This document shows, piece by piece, positions 8,066 through 29,996 of a stretch of DNA of 35,847 nt. The DNA is from Candidatus Allocopromorpha excrementigallinarum (GTDB lineage: Bacteria; Bacillota; Clostridia; Peptostreptococcales; Anaerovoracaceae), in contig DVMP01000156.1 of NCBI GenBank assembly GCA_018714925.1, positions 1-35,847 on the forward strand. The letters run 5' to 3'. Each line of letters begins with the position of its first letter. The first letter of the stretch is position 1. The notes below the pieces were generated by a model, which was given only the letters and a program-made list of their open reading frames with translations, was not told the origin of the DNA and did no database searches. Both the position numbers and the translations under genes were made by a program.

Positions 8066-8470
8066 CTATTCTTCAAAGAGCGAGGCTATGTTGTTGCGTT
8101 TGAATTCCTTTTTAAGCATGGACTGCATTCCGGCAAATGCTTTGTGCCAGCAGCATCCCTCATCGTTATGACTGCACCGGTATCCCGGCTTCATGCACTC
8201 TATTACGAGAAATGTGTTTTCAAAGGCGCTGATAACGTCGTACAGTGTAAGTTTGCTGCAGTCCGCTGCCAGCGAATAGCCTCCGTTTGCTCCCCTTTTT
8301 ATTTTTAATATCCCCTTTCCTTCAAGCTTTTTCAGTATTCTGTAGATAAACGGAGAAGGAATATTCTGCCTTTTGGCTATTTCCGCGGCAGGCAGAGGGC
8401 TTTCCTGATAAAGTTCGTACAATATGCCTACAGCATATTCCACTTCTTTTATTATAAGAATCCTTCTCAC
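8066..8470 (-). CDS. Rrf2-family transcriptional regulator
   Basis: wHTH AAEIAKRQNIPSPFIYRILKKLEGKGILKIKRGANGGYSLA followed by a Cys-rich region (ECMKPGYRCSHNDEGCCW). Confidence 0.9.
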   Translation of the reverse strand: MRRILIIKEVEYAVGILYELYQESPLPAAEIAKRQNIPSPFIYRILKKLEGKGILKIKRGANGGYSLAADCSKLTLYDVISAFENTFLVIECMKPGYRCSHNDEGCCWHKAFAGMQSMLKKEFKRNNIASLFEE

Positions 8471-8570
8471 CTCCTCTGCTGAATTTGCCTTGGTTAAATT
8501 AAATATATCATAGTGTACTTATTTTGTCAAGTATCCCTTCGCGGCAAATCTCAGGCGCGGCTTTATAACA

Positions 8571-8636
8571 AAAAAAGGGAGAAGCAGCCTGTGCCGGCAT
8601 ATGACGTATTATATCCGTACAGGTTTTCTCCCTTTG
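8571..8636 (-). terminator. Intrinsic terminator downstream of the leu operon/nitroreductase
   Basis: Stem AAAGGGAGAA (8574-8583) / TTCTCCCTTT (8626-8635) plus inner CCTGT (8588-8592) / ACAGG (8619-8623); minus strand ends in a T-run (TTTTTTTGTT). Confidence 0.7.
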
Positions 8637-8679
8637 CATCCTTTATGTTACATCTGTTATGGCAAATTATCGAAGCGTA

Positions 8680-12139: not shown

Positions 12140-13840
12140 TTATTCCACAAAATGATCCTTTCTGTTCTGTCTGTTGAGAGCGCTCACCAGAGCGTTTACG
12201 GAAGCGAGAATTATATCCTCATGGGTTCCCACTCCCCAGAATGTATCGCCGTCGCTGTCCTCTATACATACGTAGGCCGCCGCCTTTGAGGTGGATTCAG
12301 CGGACAGGGCGTGCTCCGAATAGGTGACAAACTTGTAGTCAAAGGTGTACGGAGACATTTTAAGCGCGTTGCTTATGGCGTCCAGTCTTCCATTGCCCAC
12401 AGCCTCAAACTGGAATTCGTCTCCCGCTATACGCACCTCTATTCTGGCTATCATACCGTCGTTTGACTTGTAGTCGGAGGCCTTTCTGAAAACAGCGTCC
12501 GTAATATCTATAGGATCAAATACGTTAACGTATTCTCTCGCGAAGGCCTGATACACCTCTACAGGGGAAAGCTCCTTATGCTCCCTGTCGGAAATATCCT
12601 TTACCATGTATCCTATTTCCTCCCTCATCTGAGGAGGTATCACATAGCCGAAATTCTGCTCCAGTATGTAGGCCACTCCGCCCTTTCCCGACTGACTGTT
12701 TATCCTTATGACGTCAGCCTCATACTCCCGTCCCACATCCTTGGGATCTATGAGCAGATAAGGAACCGACCATGTCTTGAGGTTTTTGTCCTTATGCCAC
12801 TTCATTCCCTTTGAAATAGCGTCCTGATGAGATCCGGAGAAGGCGGCGAACACCAGGCGGCCGCCGTAAGGCTGTCTCGGATGCACCTTCATGTCCGTGT
12901 ATTTTTCGTAGGTTTCCACCACCTCAGGCATGTTGGAGAAATCAAGCCCCGGATCGACTCCGTGGGCGAAAAGGTTCATGGCCAGAGTCACAATGTCCAC
13001 GTTTCCCGTTCTCTCACCGTTGCCGAAGAGCGTTCCCTCGATTCTGTCGCCTCCGGCCAGAAGTCCCAGCTCAGCGTCGGCTACAGCCGTTCCCCTGTCG
13101 TTGTGAGGATGGAGTGAAACAATGACGCTGTCTCTTCTGTGGAGGTTTTCACACATGTATTCCACCTGGGAGGCGTAAACATGAGGCATGGACATTTCCA
13201 CCGTGGCCGGAAGATTGATTATGGCCCTGTGCTCAGGCGTAGGCTCCCATATGTCTATTACAGCATTACATATTTCAACGGCAAAATCAAGCTCTGTTCC
13301 GGTAAAGCTCTCAGGAGAATATTCAAATGAAAAATCCGTTCCAGGGTATTTTTCCGCGTATTCCTTAAGCATGGAGGCCCCGTCTGTGGCGATCTTTATT
13401 ATTTCCGGCCTCTCCTTCTTGAAAACCTGCTCCCTCTGTGCCAGAGACGTTGAGTTATAGAGATGTATAACAGCCTTCTTTACTCCTGCCAGAGAATCAA
13501 AGGTCTTCTTTATTATATGCTTTCTCGACTGAGTGAGCACCTGTATGGTAACGTCGTCGGGAATCAGATTTTCATCTACCAGCTTTCTGAGAAATCTGTA
13601 CTCCGTCTCCGAGGCCGCCGGGAAGCCTACCTCTATTTCCTTAAAGCCCAGCTTAACCAGGTATTTAAAGAATTCCACCTTTTCCTCAAGGCTCATGGGA
13701 ACTATGAGCGCCTGATTGCCGTCCCTCAGATCAACGCTGCACCATATGGGAGCTTTTTCGATATGATCCTTCTCCACCCACTTGTTGTGAGGCGTCTCTG
13801 GAGGGAAATACCCTATTTTGTACTTTTCCACGTTTTTCAT
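12140..13840 (-). CDS. leuA: 2-isopropylmalate synthase
   Basis: Start MKNVEKYKIGYFPPETPHNKW at 13840 within ORF 12140-13894; WCSVDLRDGNQAL, SLHPHNDRGTAVADAELGLLAGGDRIEGTLFGNGERTGN. Confidence 0.97.
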   Translation of the reverse strand: MKNVEKYKIGYFPPETPHNKWVEKDHIEKAPIWCSVDLRDGNQALIVPMSLEEKVEFFKYLVKLGFKEIEVGFPAASETEYRFLRKLVDENLIPDDVTIQVLTQSRKHIIKKTFDSLAGVKKAVIHLYNSTSLAQREQVFKKERPEIIKIATDGASMLKEYAEKYPGTDFSFEYSPESFTGTELDFAVEICNAVIDIWEPTPEHRAIINLPATVEMSMPHVYASQVEYMCENLHRRDSVIVSLHPHNDRGTAVADAELGLLAGGDRIEGTLFGNGERTGNVDIVTLAMNLFAHGVDPGLDFSNMPEVVETYEKYTDMKVHPRQPYGGRLVFAAFSGSHQDAISKGMKWHKDKNLKTWSVPYLLIDPKDVGREYEADVIRINSQSGKGGVAYILEQNFGYVIPPQMREEIGYMVKDISDREHKELSPVEVYQAFAREYVNVFDPIDITDAVFRKASDYKSNDGMIARIEVRIAGDEFQFEAVGNGRLDAISNALKMSPYTFDYKFVTYSEHALSAESTSKAAAYVCIEDSDGDTFWGVGTHEDIILASVNALVSALNRQNRKDHFVE

Positions 13841-14293: not shown

Positions 14294-14911
14294 ATGCAGT
14301 TTAACATAACCACAGGATACGCGGTAAGACTGCTCATATGTCTGGGAGAGGAAGGTGAAATAATGCCGGGAGGGCAGATAGCCCAAAGAGCGGGGATACC
14401 GCCCAAATATCTCATAAAGATAAACTCCAGGCTGAAAAAAGCGGGACTCATAGAATCGGTAGCGGGAAAGAAGGGAGGCTACTACCTGTGCAGAAGGCTT
14501 GAGGACATAACCTTTCTTGAAGTAATAGATATAATGGAGCCGGAGGGAAGAATCAGCCGGTGCCTGGAGGAAGAGGGGATCTGCAGTATGAAGGCGGAAA
14601 AGAAATGCGCCATAAGAAAGTACTACAGAGATATGTATGAGGACATGAAGGAAAAGTGGCTCAAATGCAGCCTGGAAGAGATAAGGACATGGAGGGAGGA
14701 AGGACGGGAAAGGACAGAATGGAAGAGAAAAGAAGAGAAAAACAAAGGGGTAATATATATAAAAGGCGAAAGGCCGCTGCTGCTTGGCCTTGCGGCGGCA
14801 GCGGCGGCTGCGGGCCCGAAGGCGAGAAGGTGTTGGAGGCTTCAGGAAGTACTGTGGAAATGGGTCAGGTTATATTTACTGCAGAAACAAAAGAGTTTCG
14901 CGATCAGGTAG
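14294..14911 (+). CDS. Rrf2-family transcriptional regulator with an atypical read-on C-terminus
   Basis: MQFNITTGYAVRLLICLGEEGEIMPGGQIAQRAGIPPKYLIKINSRLKKAGLIESVAGKKGGYYL; Cys cluster RCLEEEGICSMKAEKKC. RBS aggaaagga. Ends out of frame inside the next ORF. Confidence 0.85.
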   Translation: MQFNITTGYAVRLLICLGEEGEIMPGGQIAQRAGIPPKYLIKINSRLKKAGLIESVAGKKGGYYLCRRLEDITFLEVIDIMEPEGRISRCLEEEGICSMKAEKKCAIRKYYRDMYEDMKEKWLKCSLEEIRTWREEGRERTEWKRKEEKNKGVIYIKGERPLLLGLAAAAAAAGPKARRCWRLQEVLWKWVRLYLLQKQKSFAIR

Positions 14912-15549
14912 CTCCCGAAGAGCCCATGGGATACTGCAATATATACCAGCCACAGGAGGGGTATCGCTACTATGTTATAGCCGGAACAGCTGAAAACACC
15001 GCGGATTTCGATATATCCTCCTCAGCCTTCATCGTGGAAGGAAAAACCCATAACAGCAGGGAAGAAGGAAGGCTTCTTTTTCTGGATGAATATGAAAGCG
15101 ATTTTGTAAACAGCCTGGAATCGGGGCAGACTCAGCCCTGTCTTATTTTCATGCCGGTAAAGGACGGAGATACCCCCGAAAGGCTGAGCGTTTTCTACAA
15201 CAAGGACTATTCACAGGAGGAGGGAACCTCCTTCGACTGCCAGGTGGATATTACCGTTTACATAAATGATTTCGGGGAGAAATCGGCAATGACAGGGCAA
15301 AGCGCATATTATGAAAACGGTAATAGCCGGCTGACGGGCTGTCAAAGCAGGAGAATCGCCGCGGCCGCCGTCAGAATCCCGGATATCCAAATAAAAAGGA
15401 ACTGCCGAAACAGTTCCTTAGCTTATCTGTTCAGGTTATCCCTTGTTACGGGATCTGAAGAGTCTTTCTTCCCTATTCCATTATGGCGCCCTTGGCGGCT
15501 GAGGATACGTTTCGCATGTATCTGGCCAGCCAGCCGGAGGTCACGTTAG
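14656..15549 (+). pseudogene. Lipoprotein paralog of 23871-24380, lacking an in-frame signal peptide and natural stop
   Basis: Segment 14809-15255 (GCGPEGEKVLEASGSTVEMGQVIFTAETKEFRDQVAPEEPMGY...FDCQVDIT) aligns from the lipobox Cys with the lipoprotein at 23871-24380. The upstream hydrophobic stretch PLLLGLAAAAAAAG is in the other frame, and the ORF runs through the ilv terminator. Confidence 0.6.
15391..15420 (-). terminator. Intrinsic terminator of the ilv operon
   Basis: AAGGAACTG (15396-15404) / CAGTTCCTT (15411-15419), with TTTTTAT following on the minus strand. Confidence 0.85.
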
Positions 15550-23870: not shown

Positions 23871-24380
23871 CTAAAGGGTAATATCCACCTGACAGTCAAA
23901 GGATTTTCCATCCTCCTGTGAATAGTCACTGTTGTAGAAAACACTCAGCCTTTCGGGGACTTCGTCATCCTTTACAAGAACCATCAGGAAGCAGGGGAGA
24001 GTATCCCCCGCTTCTATGGCCTCTGTAAACTCGCTGTTCAGCCTGTTGAGAAAGAGAAGCTTCCCGTCTCTTCGGCTTCCGTCAGTCTCGGCCGTCACTG
24101 TAAAGGCGGAGGAGGGGACAGCGGCACTTCCTGTGTTTTCAACTGTTCCGGATATGACGTAGTAGCGATAACCTTCATGCTCTTCGTAAAATTCATAGTA
24201 GCCTCGCGGCTCTTCCGGCTCAACCAGTTCTCTGAAATCCTTCTCTTCAGCTGTCACCGTAATCTGTCCCAGCTCTATAACATCTCCGGAAACCTCCCTT
24301 ATTTCCTCACTGCGGGAAACGCATCCGGCGAAAATCAGAAGGAGAGAAATAATTGATATGATAATACACGCGGTCTTCAT
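23871..24380 (-). CDS. Putative lipoprotein, unknown function
   Basis: Lipoprotein signal MKTACIIISIISLLLIFAGCVSRSEE; closely similar to the 14809-15255 translation. Confidence 0.8.
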   Translation of the reverse strand: MKTACIIISIISLLLIFAGCVSRSEEIREVSGDVIELGQITVTAEEKDFRELVEPEEPRGYYEFYEEHEGYRYYVISGTVENTGSAAVPSSAFTVTAETDGSRRDGKLLFLNRLNSEFTEAIEAGDTLPCFLMVLVKDDEVPERLSVFYNSDYSQEDGKSFDCQVDITL

Positions 24381-27384: not shown

Positions 27385-28404
27385 ATGGAAGAGAAAATTA
27401 TCAATCAGGATATTCAGGAAAAGGTTTTAAAGCCCTTTCCCGGAATGGGCATGCTGATCCTTACCGTGCTAGGCTTTCTGGCCGGTATCTGTCTGTGCGT
27501 TTTCAGCATTCTGCTCTTTGATGGCGCTGTAATGGGAATTCTCCTGACGGTGGGGATAATATGCGTCGTGGTGTTTCCCATACTGATGGCAGGACTGAAA
27601 ATAGTGAAGCCCAACGAGGCTCTGGTGCTGACTCTTTTCGGAAAGTATTACGGGACTATTAAGAAGGATGGCTTTTTCTTTGTCAATCCTTTTGCCACCG
27701 GGTTTAATCCTTCCGCCTCAGGCTTTATGGATGAGCTTTCCGCGGATTTTCAGGAGGCCGGCAAAAAAGGCGGATCCCCGGGCTCCGGAAAGAAAAAATC
27801 TCAGTCGGGAGGAAGAACGGTTTCCACTAAGACCATGACTCTCAATAACGCTCAGCAGAAGGTAAATGATGTAGACGGAAATCCTGTGATAATCGGCTCC
27901 GTGGTAATATGGCGAATTGTGAATCCTACCAAGGCGGTTTTCAATGTGGAAAACTACAACGAGTACATTTCCATACAGTGCGACTCCACCATAAGAAACA
28001 TAGCCAGACTTTTTCCTTATGACACCACTGAAAGCGAGGACGATGAAATGACCCTGAGGGGCTCCAGCCTTCAGATCGCCGAAAGAATGAAGGAGGAGCT
28101 TCAGAGCAAGGTTACGGACGCAGGCATAGAAATAATGGAGGTAAGAATAACTCATCTGGCCTACGCTGAGGAGATTGCGGCGGCAATGCTTAAGAGACAG
28201 CAGGCGGCGGCTACTATAGCGGCCAGGGAGAAGATCGTCGAGGGCGCCGTGGGCATGGTTCGTATGGCTCTTGATCAGCTTGAGGAGGATGAGCTTATCG
28301 TCCTGGATGATGAGAGAAAGGCGGCTATGGTCTCCAATCTTCTGGTAGTGCTCTGCGGTGACAGGGAGGCTCAGCCGGTGGTAAACAGCGGCAGTATATA
28401 TTAA
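27385..28404 (+). CDS. SPFH/band 7 domain membrane protein
   Basis: 339 aa; two N-terminal hydrophobic spans, then VKPNEALVLTLFGKYYGTIKKDGFFFVNPF ... VVIWRIVNPTKAVFNVENYNEYI ... ITHLAYAEEIAAAMLKRQQAAATIAAREKIVEGAVGMV. Confidence 0.93.
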   Translation: MEEKIINQDIQEKVLKPFPGMGMLILTVLGFLAGICLCVFSILLFDGAVMGILLTVGIICVVVFPILMAGLKIVKPNEALVLTLFGKYYGTIKKDGFFFVNPFATGFNPSASGFMDELSADFQEAGKKGGSPGSGKKKSQSGGRTVSTKTMTLNNAQQKVNDVDGNPVIIGSVVIWRIVNPTKAVFNVENYNEYISIQCDSTIRNIARLFPYDTTESEDDEMTLRGSSLQIAERMKEELQSKVTDAGIEIMEVRITHLAYAEEIAAAMLKRQQAAATIAAREKIVEGAVGMVRMALDQLEEDELIVLDDERKAAMVSNLLVVLCGDREAQPVVNSGSIY

Positions 28405-28410
28405 CACCCT

Positions 28411-28728
28411 GTGGATTATCCTGTAAATGGCTCTATGGACGTTTCTATGAACAATTCTATGAACGATACAGAAAGAAAAGATTTGGAAAAAAAGGAAGAA
28501 AAGCTGCAGGCGCGCCTTGAACGGCTGAAGGCTCTCGAGGAGGAAATAAAGGAGCGGGAAAAGGCGGTAAAGGAAAAGGAGAAAACGAAAAAGCAGATGG
28601 TGCTGCGCCTTTCGCCGAGTCTGTGGAACGAAATAGCCAAATGGGCGGAGGAAGACTTCCGCTCCATTAACGGCCAGGTGGAGTATCTTCTCAGTCAGTG
28701 CGTCAATGAGCGGCGAAAAAAGCGCTGA
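28411..28728 (+). CDS. Coiled-coil plus Arc-like ribbon-helix-helix protein
   Basis: Charged coiled coil ERKDLEKKEEKLQARLERLKALEEEIKEREKAVKEKEK then RHH-like KKQMVLRLSPSLWNEIAKWAEEDFRSINGQVEYLLSQCV; 6 nt after the SPFH stop; GTG or downstream ATG start. Confidence 0.75.
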   Translation: MDYPVNGSMDVSMNNSMNDTERKDLEKKEEKLQARLERLKALEEEIKEREKAVKEKEKTKKQMVLRLSPSLWNEIAKWAEEDFRSINGQVEYLLSQCVNERRKKR

Positions 28729-28808
28729 CCGCCCGGCCGGCGACAAATGACAAAATCCGGATGACAGCTATATGGCGGCTATGGTGTATCTTGTGCCGGC
28801 ACAGGCGC

Positions 28809-29089
28809 TTTCTCCCTATTTTTCATTATGAAGCCTCCTCTGAGGGAGAAATTTTCCGGGGTTGCCCTTCCTCGGGATTGCACGGCGGCTGTTTTCTACC
28901 TCAACTGTTCCGAAAAAATCAGCTCCAGGGAGAAAAATTTACCGCTTTAAATTGCAAAAGCGGTATTTTTTTACATTAATCCTATAAAATAGAAATATTT
29001 CTCCCTGAATGAGGTTACATAATTAAAATCAGGGAGAAATCACTTATGGACAGAGGTTGCACAGCCCTTTGGGTACATAATTTCTCCCT
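28809..29089. repeat. Six-copy AGGGAGAAA/TTTCTCCCT motif array
   Basis: TTTCTCCCT at 28809-28817, 28998-29006, 29081-29089; AGGGAGAAA at 28843-28851, 28927-28935, 29031-29039. Confidence 0.9.
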
Positions 29090-29123
29090 CTATATGGAGT
29101 TTTCGGAACAGTTGAGGTAGAAA
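28893..29123. repeat. 231-bp palindromic element bounded by 24-bp perfect inverted repeats
   Basis: TTTCTACCTCAACTGTTCCGAAAA at 28893-28916 and its exact reverse complement at 29100-29123; inner AGGGAGAAA lies 10 nt inside each arm. Confidence 0.9.
28940..28972. terminator. Probable bidirectional terminator inside the palindromic element
   Basis: TACCGCTTT (28940-28948) / AAAGCGGTA (28957-28965) followed by T7 on +, and AAATTTTT on the minus strand. Confidence 0.75.
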
Positions 29124-29146
29124 TGGGCTCAAAGCGGAATAAAACC

Positions 29147-29190
29147 GGGTCCGGCGCTTTTCCATGAAGCTTATGAAAAGCGCCGGACCC
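29147..29190 (-). terminator. Intrinsic terminator of the sortase gene
   Basis: 16-bp perfect stem GGGTCCGGCGCTTTTC (29147-29162) / GAAAAGCGCCGGACCC (29175-29190); minus strand continues GGTTTTATTCC. Confidence 0.8.
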
Positions 29191-29222
29191 GTCTGGATCT
29201 TTATGGGAATCAGCCGGAACCG

Positions 29223-29996
29223 CTACTGGGGCCTTACCTGCTTCGCGTCGGTTCTTCTTCCCACAACGAAGAACCTTCCGTCCTTAACATGGTAGGCGCA
29301 GGTGGAGAGGGTTACCAGCTGGTCTCCGTATTCGGGAACTACTCCCGTCTCGTAGAGGGAGAGGGATTTTATTCCCCGAACATAGTCGTTAAACTCTGAT
29401 TCGGTGGTGATTCCGGCATACTGATAATATTTGAATTCCGTGGAGTCGGCAGGATATATCTGTGAATAGCATACCGCTACCACCTCGTAGGTCCCCTGCC
29501 CTCCTTTATATATTGTATCGAATTTAAAGGTTTTGTGGTCCCTGTAAAAGCTTTCCTCCTCGTATTCGAGAAGGTCGTGAAACATGGTTCCGTTCTTCAT
29601 GTTGTGTCCGTATATGAGAAAATTAGACGTGGGAATAAATATGTCGCTGGCTGCGTCCATAAAAGGAATTCCCGAAAGGGCGCTTTCCCTGTAAAAATTC
29701 CTCCTCAGGTAATACTCCGGGTCATCCTGTGTCTGCATAACAGGGTAGTCTATATGAGTATCGTCTACCTGGACCCAGCCTATAATATCATCGTTGGCAA
29801 GATAAAGGTCAACGTATTTTCCTATTACGGTGCCTTTGTCCGTGACCAGATCCTCTCTTTCTGTTTTAAGCCTGGCCAGATCCTCAAGGGAACGCTGCTC
29901 TCTCATGCCGTTTATGACGTAATCCAGGATTACCGCCGCTGATCCCACGAATACTATTATACATATTACAAGGATTATTTTTCTTGTTAAACTCAT
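29223..29996 (-). CDS. Class B sortase
   Basis: N-terminal TM segment; IDYPVMQTQDDPEYYLRRNF, FLIYGHNMKNGTMF (catalytic His), LVTLSTCAYHVKDGRFFVVGRR (catalytic Cys and Arg). Confidence 0.92.
   Translation of the reverse strand: MSLTRKIILVICIIVFVGSAAVILDYVINGMREQRSLEDLARLKTEREDLVTDKGTVIGKYVDLYLANDDIIGWVQVDDTHIDYPVMQTQDDPEYYLRRNFYRESALSGIPFMDAASDIFIPTSNFLIYGHNMKNGTMFHDLLEYEEESFYRDHKTFKFDTIYKGGQGTYEVVAVCYSQIYPADSTEFKYYQYAGITTESEFNDYVRGIKSLSLYETGVVPEYGDQLVTLSTCAYHVKDGRFFVVGRRTDAKQVRPQ

Follow-up and report, generated by a model that had tools for sequence, protein, structure and literature searches.

The 315-bp sequence at positions 28809-29123 of the window, the whole 35,847-nucleotide stretch of DNA from Candidatus Allocopromorpha excrementigallinarum that was analysed, is one copy of a new species-restricted repeat that is broadly BIME-like and carries an unusual helical-phase constraint, and this is a better account of it than a chance palindrome. 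The repeat is dispersed in multiple copies with sharp ends, one copy has swapped a module at a half-site, and the half-sites are conserved over linkers that are variable in sequence, fixed in length and phased at 10.5 bp. The reading that we lean towards on the strength of these sequence features is that of a species-specific, BIME-like dispersed intergenic DNA repeat whose functional core would be alternating half-sites arranged in a phased lattice, to which a putative dimeric DNA-binding protein would bind. The usual reading of a short dispersed repeat is either a hairpin for a single-strand transposase or a MITE. In this case the sequence points to selection on the helical phase between half-sites, which is a signature of cooperative protein binding, and the putative partner protein is therefore directly searchable.

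The first-pass annotation had described a 231-bp palindrome bounded by 24-bp inverted repeats. The palindrome holds up, but the unit had been delimited wrongly, as the repeat starts at 28809 (TTTCTCCCTATTTTTCATTATGAAGCCTCCTCTGAGGGAGAAA), 84 bp before that element, and is both multicopy and modular. The repeated unit (28809-29123, + strand) has the order B'-A-B-A', and the flank alignment, the module catalogue and the copies agree that homology starts and stops exactly at these positions. Module B' (28809-28851, +) is 43 bp long, has the half-sites TTTCTCCC and GGGAGAAA and the inner sequence CATTATGAAG, and lies outside the 231-bp element. It is followed by a linker (28852-28892) that is only 55% identical between copies and exactly 41 bp long in all of them, and then by module A (TTTCTACCTCAACTGTTCCGAAAA...AGGGAGAAA; 28893-28935, +), which comprises the left arm and inner block described earlier. 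The next linker is 62 bp (28936-28997; 61-63 in other copies) and holds a terminator-like hairpin shared only with copy C10. Module B (28998-29039, -) is 42 bp long and inverted relative to B', and the linker after it (29040-29080) is exactly 41 bp in every full copy and in some copies has a weak inner stem of the CCTG..CAGG type. The unit ends with module A' (29081-29123, -), an inverted A that contains the right arm and its inner block. The 24-mer TTTCTACCTCAACTGTTCCGAAAA was indeed found at 28893-28916 with its exact complement at 29100-29123, where shuffled sequences lead one to expect none, and it had no further copy in the window at up to three mismatches. Each arm does have its block 10 nt further in, AGGGAGAAA at 28927-28935 and TTTCTCCCT at 29081-29089, and the inner hairpins (28933-28972 and 28997-29040) and the direct repeat GGTTACATAATT were likewise recovered. 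An arm with a conserved block 10 nt inside it is in fact one 43-bp module with a 25-bp non-palindromic interior, so that the A-specific halves of A and A', two inverted modules, make up the 24-bp inverted repeat; the arms extended in this way are 43 nt long with 84% complementarity.

When the host genome (1.98 Mb in 166 contigs) was searched for further copies, the repeat was found to be dispersed over about 15 scattered loci. The inventory was based on pattern, blastn and sequence-model searches; the 231-bp element as query gave 22 matches, and the pattern search found 35 exact modules compared to 0-1 in the reversed control. Modules A and A' are both complete in five composites (C117, C10, C102, C12 and C123), and the full-length copies are C10 (81%) and C102 (71%). 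Other copies are on C12 (two), C29, C96 (two), C123, C159 and C163, single modules are on C31, C51 (at the contig end), C84 and C86, and the sequence model added C108, C8 and a decayed copy in the window. The second C96 copy is truncated by the contig end, and the true copy number is probably higher because several copies sit at contig ends. Similarity between copies starts at TTTCTCCC and stops at GGTAGAAA, spanning 314-316 bp, and the DNA outside is unrelated. In one C96 composite the last module has been replaced by another, exactly from the half-site inward, and the arrays at the second C12 locus (C12b) and on C163 are rearranged. B' is present in every composite with an intact left side, and an A module without B' occurs only in the single-module C31 and in the rearranged C12b and C163. 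All copies are intergenic and mostly adjoin the 3' ends of genes, with one in a divergent region, and the neighbouring genes are unrelated to each other (hydrogenase, UvrC-like, HAD, GNAT). On C159 (L007, 1-133) the left part of the composite is interrupted by what by eye resembles the end of an insertion sequence, with repeated GTGGMTCACTTTC motifs. A stretch ATTGAAAACTTTTGYCYTCTTACCTG precedes the first half-site only in L168 (C86, about 12470-12508) and L169 (C96, about 2575-2613), hinting at additional module types.

The whole element was not found in other genomes of the genus (36 searched with blastn, 48 with the sequence model), the exact A-half pattern had no match in 85,488 GTDB (r220) genomes or in viral contigs, and distant blastn against plasmid and phage collections gave no match. 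Within the genus, the module pattern was clustered, beyond the host genome, only in G061 and G028. G061 has five modules with other interiors, for example TTTCTCCCCCACAGCCTTGATAAAGCTGATTACAGGGGAGAAA, and G028 has an array of 62-bp period that runs past the contig end; both have the same half-sites, different interiors and similar spacings. The tandem 62-bp-period units of G028 are seen at 4185-4408 of L177 (contig C113) as TTTCTACCTG..GATATC..CAGGTAGAAA. Module matches in the 397 other genomes of the order were all single, at a level equal to that of the reversed control. From these sequences the half-site appears to be common to the genus and the interiors to be species-specific. For a lineage of uncultured Clostridia this is a repeat family in which the half-site is conserved and each species has interiors of its own.

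Across six composites the half-site TTTCTMCC is 88-100% identical, the module interiors are 52-81% identical and the linkers 55-74%. Neither of the two 41-bp linkers has an indel in any composite, and the long linker is 61-63 bp. In an unbiased check, any gap of 25-55 bp and then of 56-86 bp was permitted between GGGAGAAA and TTTCTMCC genome-wide; with the shorter range the gap was 41 bp in 15 of the 17 loci, the others being 42 and 52, and with the longer range all six gaps were 61-63 bp. The distances between module centres, including those of G061 and G028, were 84, 104.5, 83.5, 95, 127, 74, 62 and 178 bp, which fall almost exactly at whole multiples of 10.5 bp. The fit to 10.5 bp has a mean cosine of 0.93 and, with the period scanned from 9 to 13, a p-value of about 3.5e-5, which is a guide and not a proof since it assumes independence of the spacing classes, which number only six to nine, are not all independent and come from copies that share descent. 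The 41-bp spacing classes may be one ancestral event, and the G028 spacings (39/23 by anchor) are fitted by the 62-bp period only and not by half-site. Half-site orientation alternates strictly in all arrays. The anchor steps are 42, 42, 42, 63, 41, 42 and 42 in the window copy and 42, 42, 41, 31, 32, 42, 53 and 42 in the rearranged C12 array, where the 31/32 split relies on a half-site with one mismatch, and in C123 an orphan half-site lies exactly 42 bp past the composite. Steps of 31/32 bp in C12b, C96a and C29 mark a candidate half-site hidden midway in the 62-bp linker; this is suggestive and could be chance. The conserved arms around a variable spacer were the right clue at first pass, and of the selection on structure that had been proposed from them, the constraint looks like one on spacing, that is helical phase, more than one on pairing. 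No report of phased half-sites in interspersed repeats came up in a literature search.

A rival reading is that of a structured non-coding RNA, or of a bidirectional terminator or attenuator, that would be transcribed from the repeat loci. Both strands do fold far more stably than shuffles (z -11.3 and -10.7), and C117 and C10 have a terminator-like hairpin with a T run. This hairpin, however, is not conserved beyond these two closest copies, Rfam had nothing above the gathering threshold and only chance-level matches at relaxed thresholds, and the RNAalifold covariation term was unfavourable at +5.03, a value of low power with only six sequences. In the A-A' arms, three of the 24 pairs are changed on both sides (four cells), a score that 25 of 500 shuffles reach, and covariation elsewhere is confined to short, scattered helices. 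In each A module TTTCTACC stands opposite GGGAGAAA, so that the short stem of the module itself contains an A.G mismatch, and because this mismatch is in all A modules the half-sites lack the covariation of a stem. Together the covariation term, the three A-A' pairs and the mismatch weakly disfavour an RNA; with the Rfam result, the unconserved hairpin and a periodicity of 10.5 bp and not 11 bp also counted, we hold this reading to be very improbable, and a double-stranded binding lattice would fit the covariation, the mismatch and the hairpin better. The complementarity of A and A' could come, for instance, from a role as termini or from gene conversion. An invertible switch next to the sortase locus, for which the 183 bp enclosed by perfect 24-bp inverted repeats close to a cell-surface gene would speak, is without support and hardly credible, since, measured against B', the interior points the same way in each of the five full A-A' composites and in the other copies that retain B', A and B, and since the copies lie near the unrelated genes named above.

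Among the three options of the first-pass annotation the MITE-like element came nearest, as the repeat is dispersed and non-coding, ends sharply and has inverted modules at its termini, but neither a consistent target-site duplication nor, in a search for the Y1 family and among nine proteins scanned near copies, a partner transposase was found. A non-autonomous transposon of this kind would be moved by a DDE transposase that recognises A and A' as terminal inverted repeats of about 24-27 bp; these are near-perfect and their complementarity is kept through the three both-sided changes. Yet B' lies outside these inverted repeats on one side, 84 bp from A, wherever the left side of the composite is intact, and although it could be a separate neighbour that was carried along, phased linkers would not be expected of a MITE. 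No target-site duplication of constant length was found, as the best flank matches were 0-6 bp and varied in length. Their nominal excess (p 0.005) owes most to C96a and C12b, where it can be put down to a flanking repeat that is shared and to the self-palindromic CCGG. None of nine proteins scanned near arrays was a transposase, and we regard a MITE as unlikely. Somewhat less likely still is a REP, REPIN or BIME element that a RAYT, a Y1 transposase, would mobilise in the form of single-stranded hairpins. The repeat shares with such an element the alternation of palindromic modules, the mosaic arrays, the location between genes and the lack of target duplication, and Y1 transposases are present in 17 of 49 genomes of the genus, including those of both other array-bearing species. 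Against this, the host genome, which is 91% complete, has no Y1 transposase (Y1_Tnp), and the Y1 contigs of G061 and G028 have no array. The modules are also larger, their A stems are mismatched, and the layout of a 5'-GTAG followed by a hairpin is absent, GTAG/GGAG being in the outermost half-site with unrelated flank beyond it.

The phased lattice that we favour has a skeleton of 8-9-bp half-sites (TTTCTMCC) in strict alternation, mostly four helical turns per step. We infer that a dimeric protein supplied in trans would bind the inverted half-sites along one face of the helix and assemble cooperatively along the array, as alternating sites four turns apart would let it bridge neighbours in either direction and spread. 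The bound protein may be architectural or transposase-like, and whole composites or single modules would be copied into new intergenic sites. The long hairpin would then be mainly a by-product of the inverted half-sites and the A/A' terminal pair. What counts against a pure half-site model is that the interiors of A and A' stay complementary, the pairs changed on both sides included. A wider proposal, which we put forward tentatively and hold to be possible rather than probable, is that a candidate genus-wide DNA-binding protein organises or mobilises chromosome segments on phased TTTCTMCC arrays, each species having interiors of its own and keeping the half-site and the whole-turn spacing.

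Among the closest known systems is the BIME, built of REP palindromic units (PMC2817692), which likewise has palindromic units in alternating orientation, regular spacing, extragenic location and mosaic structure, and which is bound by IHF and gyrase (PMC2817692). The alternation of half-sites in all arrays and the intergenic position of all copies agree with the BIME layout of extragenic palindromic units in alternating orientation with conserved linkers; the REP unit itself, a 5' GTAG or variant followed by a 20-40-nt stem-loop, was not found. Unlike BIMEs, the present repeat has no 5'-GTAG stem unit and no RAYT in the genome, its modules are 43 bp with a 25-bp non-palindromic interior on a whole-turn half-site lattice, and it occupies about 15 loci as against hundreds. 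REPINs (PMC3116915) are similar in having two inverted conserved blocks that flank a length-constrained spacer and in being dispersed and non-autonomous, but they have two modules where this repeat has four and no linked Y1 transposase; compensatory changes are reported as common in REPINs (PMC3116915) and are few here. The pneumococcal BOX (PMC3049150) is also a composite modular Firmicute repeat with separable modules and extensive predicted folding, and is set apart by its description, as BOX varies in the number of tandem boxB whereas here the modules alternate at a fixed phase. MITEs, as described in PMC3049150, are alike in being short, non-coding and dispersed, and A and A' resemble their terminal inverted repeats; this repeat differs from them in that a further conserved module, B', lies beyond the inverted pair on one side, and in that neither a consistent target-site duplication nor a matching insertion sequence was identified.

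As the first-pass annotation had it, the window copy lies between convergent genes, the 105-aa ORF (28411-28728, +) and the sortase (29223-29996, -). In a relative (L072, 5001-7206) the sortase comes before the SPFH gene and the 105-aa gene, all on one strand, and in the window (27385-29996) it is downstream and convergent; since its order and strand differ, the locus has been rearranged with the repeat at the junction. Because the sortase is upstream of the SPFH gene in L072, the intergenic region of the window has no counterpart there, and none of ten relatives has an array downstream of the 105-aa gene. Adjoining the composite, and outside the repeat, is a separate 17-bp perfect inverted repeat with a 12-nt loop (CGGGTCCGGCGCTTTTC; 29146-29191), which is probably the terminator between the convergent genes. 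The second, decayed copy in the window (8561-8642, +; sequence-model search, E 7.9e-6) has half-sites at 8577-8584, with one mismatch, and 8625-8632, with anchors 41 bp apart, and lies upstream of an Rrf2-like regulator ORF (8066-8470, minus strand). Elsewhere in the window, 14656-15549 and 23871-24380 encode paralogous small secreted-type proteins with the common stretches EGYRYYVI.GT.ENT...SSAF.V and PERLSVFYN.DYSQE..SFDCQVDIT, and the start of the ORF at 14656-15549 looks frameshifted.
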